Source: an uncultured Acetatifactor sp. (lineage in GTDB: Bacteria > Bacillota > Clostridia > Lachnospirales > Lachnospiraceae). From it: a stretch of 64,000 nt of DNA. The DNA is taken from the NCBI GenBank assembly GCA_944384205.1, contig CALWSL010000004.1, forward strand, positions 62,001-126,000. Reading direction: 5' to 3'. Numbering within the stretch: the first letter of the stretch is position 1; every line of letters begins with the position of its first letter. Below the pieces are notes generated by a model, which saw nothing but the letters and a program-made list of their open reading frames with translations, did not search any database and was not told the origin of the DNA. The position numbers were made by a program, and so were the translations under genes. This document shows, in pieces, positions 55,995 to 63,984 of the stretch.

Positions 55995-58900
55995 ATGAAC
56001 GCAATTAATTCAAATGCACAGATGATACAGAAAATTAACGAAGTTCTTCAGGCTAAGAAACATGCTGTTGTCAATATTGTAAATGACAAGCTGACTATCT
56101 CAGTCTTTTCGTTGCTTGAAAAAAATCTGCAAAATGTGAGGGAGATTAATTTTGTTATAAGAGATGTGAAATTCCTGCCACATCAGTCGGAGATAAATCA
56201 TGAATTTGAGATTAATCCAACAGATATATTGTTTAATACCTATGATATTACAGAGAAAAATAAGCTACAGCACTTCTCAAAAGCGAGAAGTATGCACGAT
56301 TTTATTGAAAATCATGTGAATATCCGCAAGGTAAATGCAGGTATCCGTATCGGAGGAAATATTCTGATTATAGATGACGATTTTATGATTCAGGGTTCTT
56401 CTTCCCTTGAGGTGTTCCAGAAACATAACAGGGATTCTTTTAATAATATTAATTTCGACACGATTCTGACTGGAAGTGCTGATAAGGAGCAGATACTGGT
56501 TGCTTTGAATACTTTTAAACAGATATGGTTCAATAAGCAGATTTCGGCTGATTACAAGGAAGAACTGCTTACCAGTCTGCAATATGTTTATAGAGAGCAT
56601 GCACCCGAGTTTTTATATTATTTTACGTTGAATGAGTTATTTGGGAATCAGCTCGATACCGGTGTGGAGCGTTTTGAAAAGGATAGTGTCAGATTTAAGA
56701 AAACGGAAATATGGAATGCTTTGTATGATTTCCAGAAAGACTGTGTAGTGTCAGCAATTCGTAAGCTGAATACATATGGTGGGTGTATCATTGCAGATTC
56801 TGTTGGACTTGGTAAGACGTTTGAGGCACTTGCAATCATTAAGTATTTTGAAATTGGTATGAATAGAGTATTAGTTCTGACACCTGCCAAGCTGTATGAC
56901 AACTGGAACTCATTTCGTGGAGACTATAAAGATTCATTTCTGCATGAAACATTCAACTACAGAATCATGTTTCATACAGATTTGTCCAGATATAGTGGTA
57001 TGTCACGTTCAGGACAGGATTTGAAGAAGTTTGACTGGGGATTATATGACCTTGTCGTGATTGATGAGTCACATAATTTCCGTAACAGAAATGACAGATA
57101 TGATGAAAATGACCAGCTTGTAATGACCCGATATGCAAGGCTTATGCAGGATGTCATTAAGCGTGGCAACAATAATACGAAAGTGCTTATGCTCTCCGCA
57201 ACGCCAGTAAATAACAGTCTTGTAGATTTAAAAAATCAGATTAGCATTATCACAAGAGATACCGATGCAGCTTTTGAGGAGGAAGGGATTCCAAGTATTG
57301 AAAATCTACTTAGAAGGACGTCAGCCAGCATCAACGCATGGGAGAAACAACCGGGGCATCAGAAGGATGAATTACTGGATAGTTTATCGTCTGACTTTTA
57401 TAAACTGTTGGAAATGATGACAATATCCCGAAGTCGAAAGCATATTACAAGCTATTACGGCAATGAGGGTGTAGGTCAGTTCCCTGAGAAGAATAAGCCG
57501 GATACATGGAATAGTGATATTGATACAAAAGGTGAACTGTTGCACTTCAAAGAGACCAATGAGCTTTTGGAAGCTCTGATATTAAGTGTTTACACACCTA
57601 CCAGATACATTAAGGAAGAATATAAAAAGCTGTATATTGAAAAGTATTCACTCAAGGGTAAGCATGGTGGAGACATGAATTTTGAGACACAATCGAGTGG
57701 TATGATTGTTCTCCACAGATTTAATCTTTTTAAGCGTTTGGAAAGTTCTGTATATTCCTTTGAAGAGACTTTGCGTAGATTGCTGGAGAAAATTGAGCGG
57801 ACAGAACAGTTGTTACTGAAAGGAATGGGAAATGTATCGGAGGAGGATGCTGATTTTGGCGAGGACGATTTAGAAGACGTATATATCGAGGGAAAATACG
57901 AGATCGATGTGCGTCATTTAAGAATTGATGACTATCTGGAAGATTTAGCTTCGGATAAATGCATTATTGCTGAGATACATAAAAGTGCGAAGAAGGTATT
58001 GGATGAAGATAGAGACCAGAAACTGCAAGACCTTATGGGCGTACTTAAAAAGAAGGTTTTGGAAACGCCATATAACGAAGGTAATCGTAAGGTGCTTGTG
58101 TTTACTGCGTTCGCAGATACTGCTGATTATTTATATAAAAAGCTGTCTGACGAGATGTTGAAGCTGGGTGTTTACACAGCCTGCGTAACAGGGAAGGGCG
58201 TAGTTACCAATAATAAACTTGTAGATAAGGATTTTAATTCAGTATTATGTGCGTTCTCTCCAGTTTCAAAAATGAAAAAGGAAATTCCTGTTAATGAGCA
58301 GATAGACTTGCTGATTGGTACTGACTGTATATCGGAAGGTCAGAATTTGCAGGATTGTGATACTGTCATTAACTTTGATATCCAATGGAATCCGGTATCT
58401 CTGATTCAGCGTTTTGGTCGTATCGACAGAATTGGAAGTAAGAATAGCCATATTCAGATGATTAACTTCTTCCCTGCAATGGAGCTGAATGAGTATTTAG
58501 GTCTTGAAGCAAGGGTAAAAGGCAAAATGACCACGCTTAATCTGGTATCAACAGGCGATGAGGATGTGCTGACCCCGGAGATGAATGATTTCTATTTCAG
58601 AAAACGTCAGCTTGAGCGATTGCGTGATGAAGTCATCGATATTGAGGATGCCAATGATAATATATCTCTGACAGATCTCAACATGAACGAGTATCTGAAT
58701 GAGTTGTCAGAGTATATCCAAAATGTGCCTGAAATCAAGAAGGTTCCGAAAGGTGTATATTCTGTAACGGATGGAGAAAGTCAGGGGGTACTGTTCTGCT
58801 TTAAGCATCGTAACGATGCCAATAAACCGAAGTCAGACAGTTCCCTGTATCCATACTATCTGATTTATATGAAAAATGATGGAGAGGTACTCTATGGAAA

Positions 58901-59177
58901 CGGACAAGCCAGAGAAGTGGTAAAGCAGTTCCGTAAATTATGCTATAGCAAAGATAAACCTGTGATGGAACTGTTCCAGAAGTTCTTTGTGCGGACAAAT
59001 AATGCGAAAGATATGCAGTTTTATTCAGATTTACTGAACAAAGCGATTAAATCCATCAAAGGTGAGGAAGAGTCAAAGGCAACACAGATGATGTTTGATT
59101 TCGGAGGCTTTCATAACGCATTTGCAGATGAGACCGCAGATGACTTTGAACTGATTTCATTTTTGGTTGTGGAGTAG
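55995..59177 (+). CDS. SNF2-type helicase with degenerate PLD-like N-terminal domain
   Basis: A 1060-residue superfamily 2 ATPase. Residues ~1-190 contain a segment NILIIDDDFMIQGSSSLE that looks like a phospholipase-D HKD motif without its His and Lys. The helicase core has ADSVGLGKTFEAL (Lys274), VVIDESHNFRN (Asp357-His360), LSATPVNN (Ser401), TDCISEGQNLQDCD and QRFGRIDRIGS (from Gln805), so both RecA lobes look active. This domain order occurs in helicases of defence islands. It starts a four-gene block with a DUF4391 gene and two type III methyltransferases. Translocation on DNA is inferred. AT-rich codon use differs from the genes before 55.8 kb. Confidence 0.88.
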   Translation: MNAINSNAQMIQKINEVLQAKKHAVVNIVNDKLTISVFSLLEKNLQNVREINFVIRDVKFLPHQSEINHEFEINPTDILFNTYDITEKNKLQHFSKARSMHDFIENHVNIRKVNAGIRIGGNILIIDDDFMIQGSSSLEVFQKHNRDSFNNINFDTILTGSADKEQILVALNTFKQIWFNKQISADYKEELLTSLQYVYREHAPEFLYYFTLNELFGNQLDTGVERFEKDSVRFKKTEIWNALYDFQKDCVVSAIRKLNTYGGCIIADSVGLGKTFEALAIIKYFEIGMNRVLVLTPAKLYDNWNSFRGDYKDSFLHETFNYRIMFHTDLSRYSGMSRSGQDLKKFDWGLYDLVVIDESHNFRNRNDRYDENDQLVMTRYARLMQDVIKRGNNNTKVLMLSATPVNNSLVDLKNQISIITRDTDAAFEEEGIPSIENLLRRTSASINAWEKQPGHQKDELLDSLSSDFYKLLEMMTISRSRKHITSYYGNEGVGQFPEKNKPDTWNSDIDTKGELLHFKETNELLEALILSVYTPTRYIKEEYKKLYIEKYSLKGKHGGDMNFETQSSGMIVLHRFNLFKRLESSVYSFEETLRRLLEKIERTEQLLLKGMGNVSEEDADFGEDDLEDVYIEGKYEIDVRHLRIDDYLEDLASDKCIIAEIHKSAKKVLDEDRDQKLQDLMGVLKKKVLETPYNEGNRKVLVFTAFADTADYLYKKLSDEMLKLGVYTACVTGKGVVTNNKLVDKDFNSVLCAFSPVSKMKKEIPVNEQIDLLIGTDCISEGQNLQDCDTVINFDIQWNPVSLIQRFGRIDRIGSKNSHIQMINFFPAMELNEYLGLEARVKGKMTTLNLVSTGDEDVLTPEMNDFYFRKRQLERLRDEVIDIEDANDNISLTDLNMNEYLNELSEYIQNVPEIKKVPKGVYSVTDGESQGVLFCFKHRNDANKPKSDSSLYPYYLIYMKNDGEVLYGNGQAREVVKQFRKLCYSKDKPVMELFQKFFVRTNNAKDMQFYSDLLNKAIKSIKGEEESKATQMMFDFGGFHNAFADETADDFELISFLVVE

Positions 59178-59210: not shown

Positions 59211-59930
59211 ATGTTCAACTTACCTGATACATACAGGACGGGTGTTAAGGTAGCTTTAAAGGATTTCATTCCAAAGAATGTAAAGCCAAAAGACAAGAAA
59301 AGAATTAAGGATGCTGTAAAATCTGTAAAGCTGGAATACCAGATTGCAGGAGAAGAGATTCCATCTGTGATAAATAAGGATTATAGGTGTCAGGTCATCC
59401 AGTTCTACAACATAGAAGTGGAAAATATTGAGGATGCAAATTTTTTGGCATCTATTTACCAAAACCTTATAAAGCCATTCTGTGTATTACATATGTATGA
59501 TACGAAAGACGAAGTTTATTCTTTGGCAATCAAGCGACTAAGTCTAACGGATGATACACAGATTGTGATTGAGAACAGTCTGGTAACACAGCCATTTATG
59601 CTAAATGTACCAGATAGTTCAAAAAACAGATTTTTAGCATATGTGGATTTCATGCAGACCAAAAACAAACTGGACAAAGTAAGCCTGTATAAGGAATGGT
59701 TTTACAAGGTATATATGCTACAAAATGAAAAGGCGTATGCCAAGGTGGATATAGTACTGGAAAGCAATTTCTGGTATGATTCCGGTAGAACTGCTCAGAT
59801 AGCTTTGAAATATATGGAGCTTGTAAAGCAAAGGGAGAGCCTGAAAAAAGCAGTTACCAATGCAGAACGTATGAAGGTTAACAAATCAATAAAAACGACA
59901 ATTGCCAGTTTGGATTGTGAAGATTTGTAA
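59211..59930 (+). CDS. DUF4391 domain-containing protein
   Basis: A 239-residue protein starting MFNLPDTYRTGVKVALKDFI, with FYNIEVENIEDANFLASIYQ and a C-terminal Lys/Glu-rich helix. I recognise the DUF4391 pattern, a family found next to SNF2-like helicases and type III mod/res genes. No catalytic motif is evident. It is 33 bases after the helicase and 63 before the first mod gene, in the same direction, so it probably acts in the same system. Function unknown. Confidence 0.82.
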   Translation: MFNLPDTYRTGVKVALKDFIPKNVKPKDKKRIKDAVKSVKLEYQIAGEEIPSVINKDYRCQVIQFYNIEVENIEDANFLASIYQNLIKPFCVLHMYDTKDEVYSLAIKRLSLTDDTQIVIENSLVTQPFMLNVPDSSKNRFLAYVDFMQTKNKLDKVSLYKEWFYKVYMLQNEKAYAKVDIVLESNFWYDSGRTAQIALKYMELVKQRESLKKAVTNAERMKVNKSIKTTIASLDCEDL

Positions 59931-59993: not shown

Positions 59994-61841
59994 ATGAACG
60001 AGACAAAAGTATCAAAGAACATAAATGATGTGGTAGGCGATAATATTAAGAAACTTGCACAGCTATTCCCGTCAGCAGTAAAGGATGGAGAGGTTGATTT
60101 TGAGGCTCTGAAGGAAGAATTAGGTCAGTTTACGGAAGTTGGTAGTGAAAAATATGAGCTTACTTGGGCTGGTAAGAAGAATGCGAAAAAGATTGCGCAG
60201 GAAGATGTAGTCGGAAGAACTTTGAAATTTATTCCAGAGGATAGCAAGGATGCAGATACTACGGAAAACCTTTATATCGAGGGTGATAATCTGGAAGTAT
60301 TGAAGTTGCTTCGCCAGAATTACTATGGTGCAATTAAGATGATTTATATTGACCCACCGTATAATACAGGAAATGATTTTGTGTATAATGATTCTTTTTC
60401 TGATGAAAAGACAAAATCTGATATTGCAGAAGGTTTTGCAAGTGAAACGGGAGATCGATACATTAAAAATATTAAATCCCAAAATCGTTATCATGCAAAA
60501 TGGTTAAGTATGATGTATCCGCGCTTGAAACTTGCTAAAGATTTATTGAGAGATGATGGAGTGATTTTTATTTCCATAGATGATAATGAACAAAGCGATT
60601 TAGTAAAAGTGTGTGATGAAATCTTTGGTGAAGAAAATAGTATTGGCCCTTTAATACAAAATAAGCAGAATGCTAAAAATGATGCTCTAAATATTCAAAA
60701 AAATCATGAATTTATACTAGTGTATAGGAAACAAAAAGTAGAGAATGATTCATCAGTTAAGGCAAGCCTATCCAGAACAATTAAAAGATACCGTGATGCA
60801 TATGAAGAGAATGGAAAATTTTATTATATTAATGACGCTATTACCACGAGAGGTGATGGAGGAACATTAAAAGCAAGACCTAATTTGGGATATACAGTAT
60901 ATTATAAACCTGATACGAAAGATAAGATTGCAGTTATGGATTACGACATTACGTTAGCAAAAAAATCCAATGAGATTGGAAAAGTATATTCAGACAATTT
61001 GGAATTAATTTGTCAAGGATATGTACCTATTCGTCCACCGATGGTACGTGGTAATTTAGGATGTTGGACGTGGTCATTGGAAAAATTTAATGAAGAAAAA
61101 GAGAATATAATTATTACAGGAAAAGAAGGAAAGTATGCAGTAAAAAAGCGTACTTTTGTAGACAAAAAAGATATTATTGAAAATGATGGTAAATTTCAGT
61201 ATGTTTCTAAAGTTGAGAGCAATTCTAAAAGTATTATAGAATTTTCAACAAATGAAGGAACAAATTTACTCTCGGATATTATGAAGCATGGTGGGTTATT
61301 TAGCAATCCGAAAAATACTAACATGATACAGTATTTCGTTGAATTGATTAAGGATCAAGAATGCACAGTACTTGATTTTTTTAGTGGTTCTTCAACAACA
61401 GCACAAGCTGTAATGCAACAAAATAACTTGGATGGAGGGCATAGAAAATGGATTATGGTTCAATTAGATGAAAAATGTGCAGAGGAAACGGAAGCATACA
61501 AATATGGATTTGACAATATACCAGAGATTGCTAAAGAGCGTATACGCCGAGCAGGGGACAAGATAAAGCAGGAACACCCGGACTCCAACCTTGACATAGG
61601 ATTTAAAGTATTCAGGGTTGCAGATACAAATATTAAATGGAATTCACTGATAGATATTGGACAGATTGATATAGCACAGATGGAAACATCACCGGACACA
61701 ATAGATTTTATGCCAAATGTAAAGGATGTGGATGTAGTGTATGAAATAATGTTAAGGCAAAGAAATGTACCATTATCATCAAAAATCGAACATATATTCT
61801 GGGGGGGGGGGGTACTCTCGTACTTATCTTTATGCAGATAG
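59994..61841 (+). CDS. Type III DNA methyltransferase Mod1, in a frameshifted (phase-off) state
   Basis: A 615-residue beta-class DNA-adenine/cytosine methyltransferase. Motif IV DPPYNTGNDF begins at residue 120 and motif I (SAM) DFFSGSSTTAQAVM at about 461; the ~340 residues between them are the likely target-recognition domain. A G12 run (61801-61812) shifts the frame so translation ends at 61841, 11 codons later. Deleting one G would join the frame that follows (YSRTYLY... to 62049), giving 684 residues with a C-terminus like Mod2. All catalytic motifs lie upstream of the break, so the short form may keep partial activity but lose the C-terminal, probably dimerisation, region. An AAGGAGG site precedes the ATG. 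Confidence 0.9.
   Translation: MNETKVSKNINDVVGDNIKKLAQLFPSAVKDGEVDFEALKEELGQFTEVGSEKYELTWAGKKNAKKIAQEDVVGRTLKFIPEDSKDADTTENLYIEGDNLEVLKLLRQNYYGAIKMIYIDPPYNTGNDFVYNDSFSDEKTKSDIAEGFASETGDRYIKNIKSQNRYHAKWLSMMYPRLKLAKDLLRDDGVIFISIDDNEQSDLVKVCDEIFGEENSIGPLIQNKQNAKNDALNIQKNHEFILVYRKQKVENDSSVKASLSRTIKRYRDAYEENGKFYYINDAITTRGDGGTLKARPNLGYTVYYKPDTKDKIAVMDYDITLAKKSNEIGKVYSDNLELICQGYVPIRPPMVRGNLGCWTWSLEKFNEEKENIIITGKEGKYAVKKRTFVDKKDIIENDGKFQYVSKVESNSKSIIEFSTNEGTNLLSDIMKHGGLFSNPKNTNMIQYFVELIKDQECTVLDFFSGSSTTAQAVMQQNNLDGGHRKWIMVQLDEKCAEETEAYKYGFDNIPEIAKERIRRAGDKIKQEHPDSNLDIGFKVFRVADTNIKWNSLIDIGQIDIAQMETSPDTIDFMPNVKDVDVVYEIMLRQRNVPLSSKIEHIFWGGGVLSYLSLCR
61801..61812 (+). repeat. Poly-G (G12) tract in mod1, candidate phase-variation switch
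   Basis: Twelve consecutive G inside the coding region. Such mononucleotide runs change length by slipped-strand mispairing. With 12 G the 3' part is out of frame; 11 or 14 would be in frame. The equivalent place in mod2 has no such run. Confidence 0.9.
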
Positions 61842-62049
61842 TTACTTGGTTTGTCTTGAGACAAAAATTACAGAGGAATTAATTGATAAGTTGGCAGGGA
61901 TAGACCCGTTGCCAATAAAATTCATTTTCAGAGACTCGGCATTCCAAGATGATATCGCAATGAAGGATGAAACATTCCGTAGACTAAAAGCGCTGATAGA
62001 AAAAAATAATGGAATGAATAAGATGGCATACACAGTAGAGTTTATCTGA
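61842..62049 (+). other. Out-of-frame 3' part of mod1
   Basis: In the +1 frame relative to mod1, this segment encodes the C-terminus found in Mod2: VCLETKITEELIDKLAG, FIFRDSAFQDDIAMKDETF and ending YTVEFI. It has no start codon or ribosome site of its own, and its codons and protein sequence are conserved against Mod2, so it is intact coding sequence waiting for the right frame and not decayed DNA. Confidence 0.88.
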
Positions 62050-62121: not shown

Positions 62122-63984
62122 ATGGAATATAAAAAAGTAAATCAGAGTATGAACAACATTGTAAATGAGCAGGTTAGAAAATTGGAAAGTTTGTTTCCGT
62201 CAGCGGTGAAAGATGGAGAAGTGGATTTTCAGGCTCTGAAGGAAGAATTAGGTCAGTTTACAGAGGTTGGAAATGAAAAATACGAACTGACATGGGCTGA
62301 AAAAAAGAATGCGAAAAAGATTGCACAAGAAGATATTGTGGGAAAGACACTGAAATTCGTTCCTGAAGATAGTAAGAATGCAGATGCGACAGAGAATCTT
62401 TATATAGAGGGTGATAATCTGGAAGTATTGAAGTTGCTTCGCCAGAATTACTTTGGTGCGATAAAGATGATTTATATTGACCCACCGTATAATACAGGAA
62501 ATGATTTTATTTACAATGATTCTTTTGATATCTCTCAAGCTGAAAGTGATATTGCAGAAGGGGATATGAATGATTTGGGAGTTAGATATACTGTTAATAC
62601 AAAATCGAAAAATAGGTTTCATGCTAAGTGGTTGAATAATATTTATGCGAGACTAAAAATAGCGAAGGATTTACTGACTGAAGATGGTGTTATTTTTATT
62701 TCGGTTGATGACAATGAAGTTACCAATTTGAGAAAACTTTGTGAAGAGATATTCGGAGAAGATAATTTTGTTGCACAGTTTATCTGGAAATCTAAATTAG
62801 GAAAGGTAGGTACTACGTCCACAATTTCTACGGTACATGAATATATATTGTGTTATTCAAAAAGTATTAATAATGTACAATTTAAAATGATTGAGACTCC
62901 GAATGATGGAAGAAAAGAGAATTTGAGACAATGGGGAATTGCTGATAGACGAGAGGATAGACCGTCTATGTGGTATCCTATTAAAATTGATGGGATTGAG
63001 GTATATCCATATAAGGAGGATGGTACAGAGGGAAGATGGCGAGTTGGCGAAGATATGGCAAAGGAATTGTTAGCTGATGGAAAACTTGAACTTGTTAAGA
63101 AAGGAAGTACATATAATATATATAGAATTTTTGATTCTGGAATATCTGTTACACCATATGACACGTTACTTTTAGATGATATTGGCACGACAGCAAGAGG
63201 GGCGATTACCCTTAAGGCTTTAGAGATGTCCAAGATATTTGACTATTCTAAGCCGGTAGAGTTGATAAAGCATTTTTTGGTGTTAGCCACAGACAAAGAA
63301 GATGTAATATTGGATTTTTTCTCTGGTTCTTCAACGACAGCGCATTCTGTTATGGAATTAAATTCAGAGAATGATACAAGTAGAAGAAAGTGGATAATGA
63401 TTCAATTAGGAGAAAAGACAGATGATAAGTCAGAGTCTTATAAAAATGGATATTATCGGATTTGCGATATAGGAAAAGAACGAATCAGACGTGCAGGCGA
63501 AAAGATTAAATCAGAACATCCAGATGCAGATATTGATATAGGATTCAAAGTATTCCGAGTAGCAGACACTAATATCAAATGGAATTCTCTTATGGATGCA
63601 GGGCAGTTAGACATGACACAGATGGAGTACAATCCAGACCTTATAGATTTTATGCCAGATGCAAAAGATGTCGATATTGTTTACGAAATCATGCTTCGCC
63701 AGCGTAATGTAGCATTATCTGAGTCTTTAGAACTGTTATCTGACATTGGTAATCGTACATATCTCTATGCAGGCAGTTTCCTTGTATGTCTCGAAACAGA
63801 GATTACAGAGGTATTGATTGGAAAGCTGGCAGAACTTGACCCTTTACCGATTAAGTTTATTTTCAGAGATTCTGCTTTTAAGGATGATATTGCCTTAAAG
63901 GACGAGACTTTTAGAAGGTTGAAAGCGCTCGTGGAGAAAAATGCAGGAACCAATAAACCTGTTTATACTGTAGAGTTCATATAA
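62122..63984 (+). CDS. Type III DNA methyltransferase Mod2
   Basis: A 620-residue beta-class methyltransferase with intact reading frame. Motif IV DPPYNTGNDF begins at residue 120 and motif I DFFSGSSTTAHSVM at about 398, leaving ~278 residues for target recognition. Residues 1-~135 and the last ~150 closely match Mod1; the centre is unrelated, so the two should methylate different sites. The C-terminal region (TYLYAGSFLVCLETEITEVL, ending YTVEFI) is the one cut off in Mod1. ATG 62122 has TTGGAGGA upstream; the frame from 62068 has none. A res gene is expected downstream. Confidence 0.92.
   Translation: MEYKKVNQSMNNIVNEQVRKLESLFPSAVKDGEVDFQALKEELGQFTEVGNEKYELTWAEKKNAKKIAQEDIVGKTLKFVPEDSKNADATENLYIEGDNLEVLKLLRQNYFGAIKMIYIDPPYNTGNDFIYNDSFDISQAESDIAEGDMNDLGVRYTVNTKSKNRFHAKWLNNIYARLKIAKDLLTEDGVIFISVDDNEVTNLRKLCEEIFGEDNFVAQFIWKSKLGKVGTTSTISTVHEYILCYSKSINNVQFKMIETPNDGRKENLRQWGIADRREDRPSMWYPIKIDGIEVYPYKEDGTEGRWRVGEDMAKELLADGKLELVKKGSTYNIYRIFDSGISVTPYDTLLLDDIGTTARGAITLKALEMSKIFDYSKPVELIKHFLVLATDKEDVILDFFSGSSTTAHSVMELNSENDTSRRKWIMIQLGEKTDDKSESYKNGYYRICDIGKERIRRAGEKIKSEHPDADIDIGFKVFRVADTNIKWNSLMDAGQLDMTQMEYNPDLIDFMPDAKDVDIVYEIMLRQRNVALSESLELLSDIGNRTYLYAGSFLVCLETEITEVLIGKLAELDPLPIKFIFRDSAFKDDIALKDETFRRLKALVEKNAGTNKPVYTVEFI

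Follow-up and report, generated by a model that had tools for sequence, protein, structure and literature searches.

Towards the end of the window, as we call the whole stretch of 64,000 nucleotides analysed from an uncultured Acetatifactor sp., begins a locus with the gene order SNF2 helicase, DUF4391, mod1, mod2, DUF1016/YhcG nuclease-like gene and Res. The first gene (55995..59177, forward strand) encodes an SNF2-type helicase of 1060 amino acids, with the Pfam domains SNF2-rel_dom and Helicase_C and a PADLOC match to C3a139 'HKD+Snf2' of 721 bits. It is followed by a gene (59211..59930, forward strand) for a protein of 239 amino acids that matches DUF4391 (PF14335, 5.8e-36) and for which a search of plasmids gave no match. 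The Res partner belongs to the same locus (L009:9714-12809) and displays the matches of a type III restriction subunit with its DEAD helicase and endonuclease, namely ResIII, RE_endonuc and PADLOC REase_III (8e-187). Enzymes of this type characteristically mark one strand at short asymmetric sites and, using ATP, cut where two such sites stand inverted. In the relatives L060, L101, L102 and L104, an SNF2 helicase and a DUF4391 protein likewise adjoin mod and res. The position of these two genes beside mod-res suggests a type III system enlarged by two components.

The YhcG-like gene lies just downstream of the window (L009:8558-9433). A TAG in frame closes it, and reading on past this codon gives DVGQMDMYIRMYDE. 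As the match to Pfam YhcG_C is confined to positions 2-85 of 157 and the frame is interrupted by this TAG, the gene may be a truncated accessory gene.

The two methyltransferase genes stand side by side on the forward strand. mod1 (59994..61841) starts with an ATG at 59994 that is preceded by AAGGAGG and specifies, in the frame as given, 615 amino acids. The sequence-only reading had called its product a type III Mod, and profile searches agree (PADLOC MTase_III, 3e-166; Pfam N6_N4_Mtase, 5.9e-30). The protein has the motif order of a beta-class N6/N4 methylase, with the catalytic DPPY (codons 120-123, 60351..60362) before the central recognition region and FFSGSSTTA, an AdoMet-binding motif of the form FxGxS/T (codons 462-470, 61377..61403), after it. 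mod2 (62122..63984), with GGAGG before its ATG, encodes an intact second type III Mod of 620 amino acids. Both Mods have their N- and C-terminal parts in common and differ in the middle, the region responsible for DNA recognition in type III Mods. A profile built from 70 Mods aligns with residues 11-636 of EcoP15I Mod (4zcf_A, E 4e-125) and the phage P1 Mod is 33% identical over 535 query residues, which places the EcoP15I/EcoP1 Mods among the homologues. The EcoP15I/EcoP1 system is not known to have a poly-G tract or an SNF2 or DUF4391 partner.

The G12 tract in mod1

A run of twelve G occupies positions 61801..61812 of the forward strand, exactly the place and length that the sequence-only reading had given. 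The frame opened at the mod1 ATG passes through this run, is broken there as had been proposed, and stops at 61841. Behind the run, in the +1 frame relative to mod1, 61813..62049 holds 78 codons and a stop, which together make up the 79 codons counted earlier; the other numbers of that reading were also correct. The translated frame was said to resemble the Mod2 C terminus, and it does so with 80.5% identity over 77 amino acids. A tract of 11 G, proposed as the length that restores the frame, would give a loop as long as that of the orthologue described below. The repeat is long and improbable by chance, its length sets the reading frame, and the downstream frame is intact and free of decay, as is typical of SSR phase-variable genes. 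The features of C-terminal phase variation are present as well, with a tract at codon 603, a predicted product of 615 amino acids and 78 more codons in another frame. Since the tract comes late in mod1, out-of-frame states would still give most of the protein.

Its place in the protein can be read from the alignment with EcoP15I. In that enzyme, the methyltransferase domain ends at residue 516 and holds motifs I-VIII and X, and the C-terminal domain spans residues 539-644 (PMC4490356). The tract lies inside the coding region of the C-terminal domain and maps to about residues 566-568 of EcoP15I Mod (4zcf_A), the LGG of a stretch that reads LGGY there, some 50 residues behind the methyltransferase domain. 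On this map, a truncation at the tract removes 76 of the 106 residues of the C-terminal domain (~70%). The motif order along mod1, with DPPY at codon 120, FFSGSSTTA from 462 and the tract from 603, upholds the earlier statement that all catalytic motifs precede the run. That the tract is unusually late stands only in part: it is later than the tract of Helicobacter pylori modH, but a position behind the recognition domain is not unique, being found in modH too (PMC5700931).

No G run in the genome, an assembly of 3.15 Mb in 44 contigs, is longer than G12; runs of at least 9 G are found at two places and runs of at least 8 at five. A first-order model, with rates taken from the 64,000-nt window itself, predicts 0.34 runs of at least 12 G and about 18 runs of at least 9 G on both strands of 3.15 Mb, against one and two observed. 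Long G runs are therefore under-represented in this genome, with G12 as the extreme. A chance origin of G12 was accordingly rejected, the run being too long for its own genome. The second place with at least 9 G is an intergenic G10 on contig C17 (G000:C17:18994-19003; L010:9495-9504), about 190 bp before the ORF of a SAM-dependent methyltransferase; it is possibly a promoter-type tract.

Other origins of the tract and of its downstream frame were also considered. Poly-G artefacts at contig ends, as in the relatives L052 and L054, do not account for G12, whose contig (186,839 bases) extends on both sides of it. A separate C-terminal protein starting from the ATG at 61765 is unlikely, with only a weak AAGG in front and an orthologue that forms one continuous protein. 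Copying from mod2 by gene conversion was rejected, as mod2 has no tract and the post-tract part is nearer to the orthologous Mod1 (91%) than to mod2 (80.5%).

Orthologues and poly-G tracts in relatives

The comparisons of orthology, constraint and tracts were made with one genome per species. Among the 138 genomes of the genus searched, a single one (G064) has the same gene order with both mod genes, at identities of 85% for SNF2, 53% for DUF4391, 50% for mod1, 61% for mod2 and 80% for Res; the YhcG-like gene has no match in the stretch of G064 examined. The G064 mod1 is full length and carries, at the exact site of G12, an in-frame G7 coding FFSGGYRRTYLYA. Against this orthologue, the earlier claim that the downstream part shows no decay is well founded: 72 of its 78 residues are those of G064 Mod1 (91%), as compared with 21 differing residues in the 60 codons before the tract. 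Nucleotide differences behind the tract amount to 41, of which 31 fall at third positions, and dN is 0.04-0.05 with a dS of 0.9-2.2 that is near saturation. Residue conservation and third-position bias together indicate that selection has maintained the post-tract frame for most of the period since the two species diverged. An old pseudogene was rejected because the downstream frame is conserved. This constraint rules out old decay but is compatible with a recent, fixed frameshift.

The long run itself has a much narrower distribution than the frame around it. At the loop of the tract, the G run is at most 4 in 68 of the 70 aligned Mods, the exceptions being G064 (7) and the window (12). Six further genomes whose Mods share this kind of C terminus (G259, G249, G182, G476, G276 and G626) all lack a run of at least 7 at this loop. 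The G12 tract is a local invention and not a conserved feature of the Mod family. Related SNF2-DUF4391-mod-res loci are close in their other genes, with Res identities of 80-82% in G064, L101 (Lachnospiraceae S26_Bin3) and L114 (Petralouisia muris), and SNF2 identities of 85% in G064 and 82% in L101. In L101 and L114, the mod-res loci have one mod, and no G run of at least 6, in the stretches examined. G064 shares the two mod genes with our locus, but its G7 is in frame.

Runs in other mod genes were counted over 138 loci with Mod relatives, in 139 gene clusters on 137 loci, with neighbouring mods merged, runs assigned to the gene if they lay no more than 150 nt upstream of the match, and some contigs, recognised by their equal lengths, present twice under different handles; of one set of 80 loci, most entered the run scan and the alignment only. 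G or C runs of at least 8 in or just before mod genes gave eight tracts at five loci besides the window, against two tracts in 767 kb of flanking DNA. This corresponds to a rate ratio of about 11 (p 0.0006 by tract and 0.017 by locus) for an enrichment that rests on five loci, with some tracts upstream of the start and several in frame. The run of L138 is a C9; in G208, a G8 stands in frame and a G10 precedes the mod gene. In G231, the frame of a Mod gene is split by a G9 at about codon 60, in its N-terminal part; G403 has a G9 at the same place, in frame and with a stop codon upstream. A third gene with this arrangement, in G1039, is related to the Mods (E 1.5e-120 against Mod2) and has its frame split by a G10. 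The N-terminal tract pattern was found in two of the 392 genomes of the order (G231 and G403) and in one of the 391 of the class (G1039), and such tracts are thus rare; the reversed pattern, used as a control, had no match in these three genomes. The tract with its following motif had no match in viral_contigs, and the viral Mod relatives (4 loci) have no G or C run of at least 7.

Further details of these genes deserve mention. The G231 locus (L201, G231:C4:113500-119775) comprises two adjacent Mod genes. In both, the loop that follows the AdoMet motif is encoded with an in-frame G9 and reads HTGGGIGHRKF; one of the two also bears the frame-splitting G9 near its N terminus. In G1039, which belongs to another family of the class, the G10 (L237:1501-1510, contig G1039:C1) lies near the N terminus just before a YQFTW motif, as in the G231 Mod.

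Long G runs also interrupt genes of a different kind. A survey for G9 or longer covered 61 genomes, of which 36 had a match, and yielded 29 loci of the same genus or order besides those of the own genome; ten were inspected for frame. Two of these ten are clear frame splits, both in acyltransferase genes of the same genus, by a G9 in G033 (L043:1501-1509) and a G10 in G134 (L059:1501-1510). The tracts at the remaining inspected loci keep the frame, lie between genes or at their junctions, or stand at contig ends. In the two split genes, Acyl_transf_3 is matched at positions 2-60 before the tract (E 3e-4 and 2e-11, the former failing Pfam's own cut-off) and at positions 68-316 and 76-318 after it. 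Another of the ten is an in-frame G10 in an MBOAT acyltransferase gene of G090 (L051). Acyltransferase genes are well known as contingency loci elsewhere among bacteria, and the tracts of G033, G134 and G090 look like surface-modification contingency loci. Frame-splitting tracts in relatives make switching by poly-G slippage plausible for the lineage studied here.

Probable phase variation of mod1 and its alternatives

Slippage-driven phase variation of mod1 is the reading that we favour, with a probability of about 0.7; we infer that the tract varies in length and that this variation switches the gene, a view that fits the observations better than decay does. G12 would be a slippage-prone contingency tract, probably grown from a short run of Gly-Gly codons such as the one that the orthologue retains with its in-frame G7. 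Whenever replication added or dropped a G, translation would shift between full-length Mod1 and versions that end in short alternative tails. Judged by the homologous EcoP15I, the 615-residue form made from G12 would keep the N-terminal, catalytic and target-recognition domains and lose most of the Res-contacting C-terminal domain (about 70%), and its docking of Res may be lost or weakened. Mod2 should stay unaffected by the length of the mod1 tract.

The consequence of such a switch for the enzyme could take two forms, of which an ordinary on/off switch is somewhat the likelier. Here the truncated Mod1 would be unstable or inactive, and methylation and restriction at Mod1 sites would be lost together, as happens with known phase-variable mod genes, an outcome to which we give a little less than an even chance. 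The extent of the truncation, with 76 of 106 residues of a domain removed, points in this direction. So does H. pylori modH, a type III Mod with a poly-G tract of 8 to 15, in which the tract lies behind the recognition domain and the out-of-frame truncated protein is inactive (PMC5700931). The parallel is incomplete, as the modH tract comes 104 bp after the recognition domain (PMC5700931), whereas the mod1 tract begins 141 codons after the start of FFSGSSTTA, inside the C-terminal domain and, on the EcoP15I map, behind the whole methyltransferase domain, in a clostridial locus with two mod genes.

The other form, which we put forward tentatively and hold to be rather doubtful, is a switch of restriction only: cutting at Mod1 sites would toggle and Mod1 methylation would persist. 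In EcoP15I, the C-terminal domain of ModA makes extensive contacts with Res, and the two Mods dimerise through their N-terminal and methyltransferase domains (PMC4490356). Contacts with Res are also made by the methyltransferase domain of ModA in the published structure (PMC4490356), so that loss of the C-terminal domain need not abolish docking, which slightly lowers the odds of a restriction-only switch and raises those of an ordinary on/off switch. Loss of most of the C-terminal domain may, moreover, simply destabilise Mod1.

Three further explanations were weighed. It is unlikely, though the strongest of them, that the homopolymer was miscounted in sequencing or assembly and that mod1 is in frame in the sequenced cells. 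Homopolymers as long as G12 are error-prone in assemblies on most platforms, so the recorded length could be off by one, and the loop length of the orthologue would fit the in-frame length. Even with such an error the tract would remain: shortened by one G, it would still exceed the next longest G run of the genome, a G10.

It appears more improbable still that mod1 is a recently dead gene with a single fixed frameshift and that mod2 is the working Mod. mod2 is indeed intact and adjacent, and the early in-frame stop of the YhcG-like gene in the same locus may mean that parts of the locus are decaying. Against a dead mod1 speak the site of the break, which coincides with the genome's longest run of G, and the conservation of the part downstream of it. 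If RNA polymerase or the ribosome slipped on the tract, any tract length would give a mixture of proteins and there would be no heritable switch. This is very improbable, for although homopolymer runs can cause transcriptional slippage, the phenomenon is best known on A/T runs and the orthologue does without it, its G7 being in frame.

Known systems and meaning for gut Clostridia

Phase variation of methyltransferases by repeats has well-described precedents, to which mod1 can be compared. Repeats are common in type III mod genes: according to a survey quoted in PMC7394358, which mentions commensals, 17.4% of these genes contain SSRs. In a Gram-positive, modS of Streptococcus suis is reported to be the earliest methyltransferase demonstrated to be SSR-variable (PMC6265453). 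The HsdS subunit of NgoAV in Neisseria gonorrhoeae offers a parallel to the proposed mod1 switch, the length of a poly-G tract deciding between a full-length and a truncated working subunit (PMC6789123, PMC7394358), but it is a type I specificity subunit and the change affects target specificity. C-terminal phase variation in Helicobacter canadensis is alike in that late homopolymer tracts alter only the C terminus (PMC2823697). The length changes described there are mostly of few residues (PMC2823697), whereas 78 domain residues are at stake in mod1, and the late-tract genes presented in the available part of PMC2823697 include no type III Mod.

Set beside these systems, mod1 differs in the combination of a clostridial two-mod system with a tract inside the domain expected to contact Res. 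The name phasevarion, which implies that switched methylation alters the expression of many genes, would be premature for it. Beyond what the sequence-only reading had noted, the analysis brought out poly-G tracts that split the frames of two acyltransferase genes within the genus and of two more mod genes from Clostridia.

Restriction that is switched back on is dangerous if methylation of the chromosome was lost, and a tract in the Res-contacting domain could avoid this danger. If the restriction-only switch proves true, the lineage would drop and regain one arm of its phage defence without exposing unmethylated sites of its own to Res. Such a phase-variable defence would be safe for its bearer, unlike phasevarions, where methylation itself switches. 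On a broader scale, the frame-splitting tracts found in acyltransferase genes within the genus, and in mod genes elsewhere in the order and class, suggest that Clostridia of the gut type use slippage-driven contingency loci.
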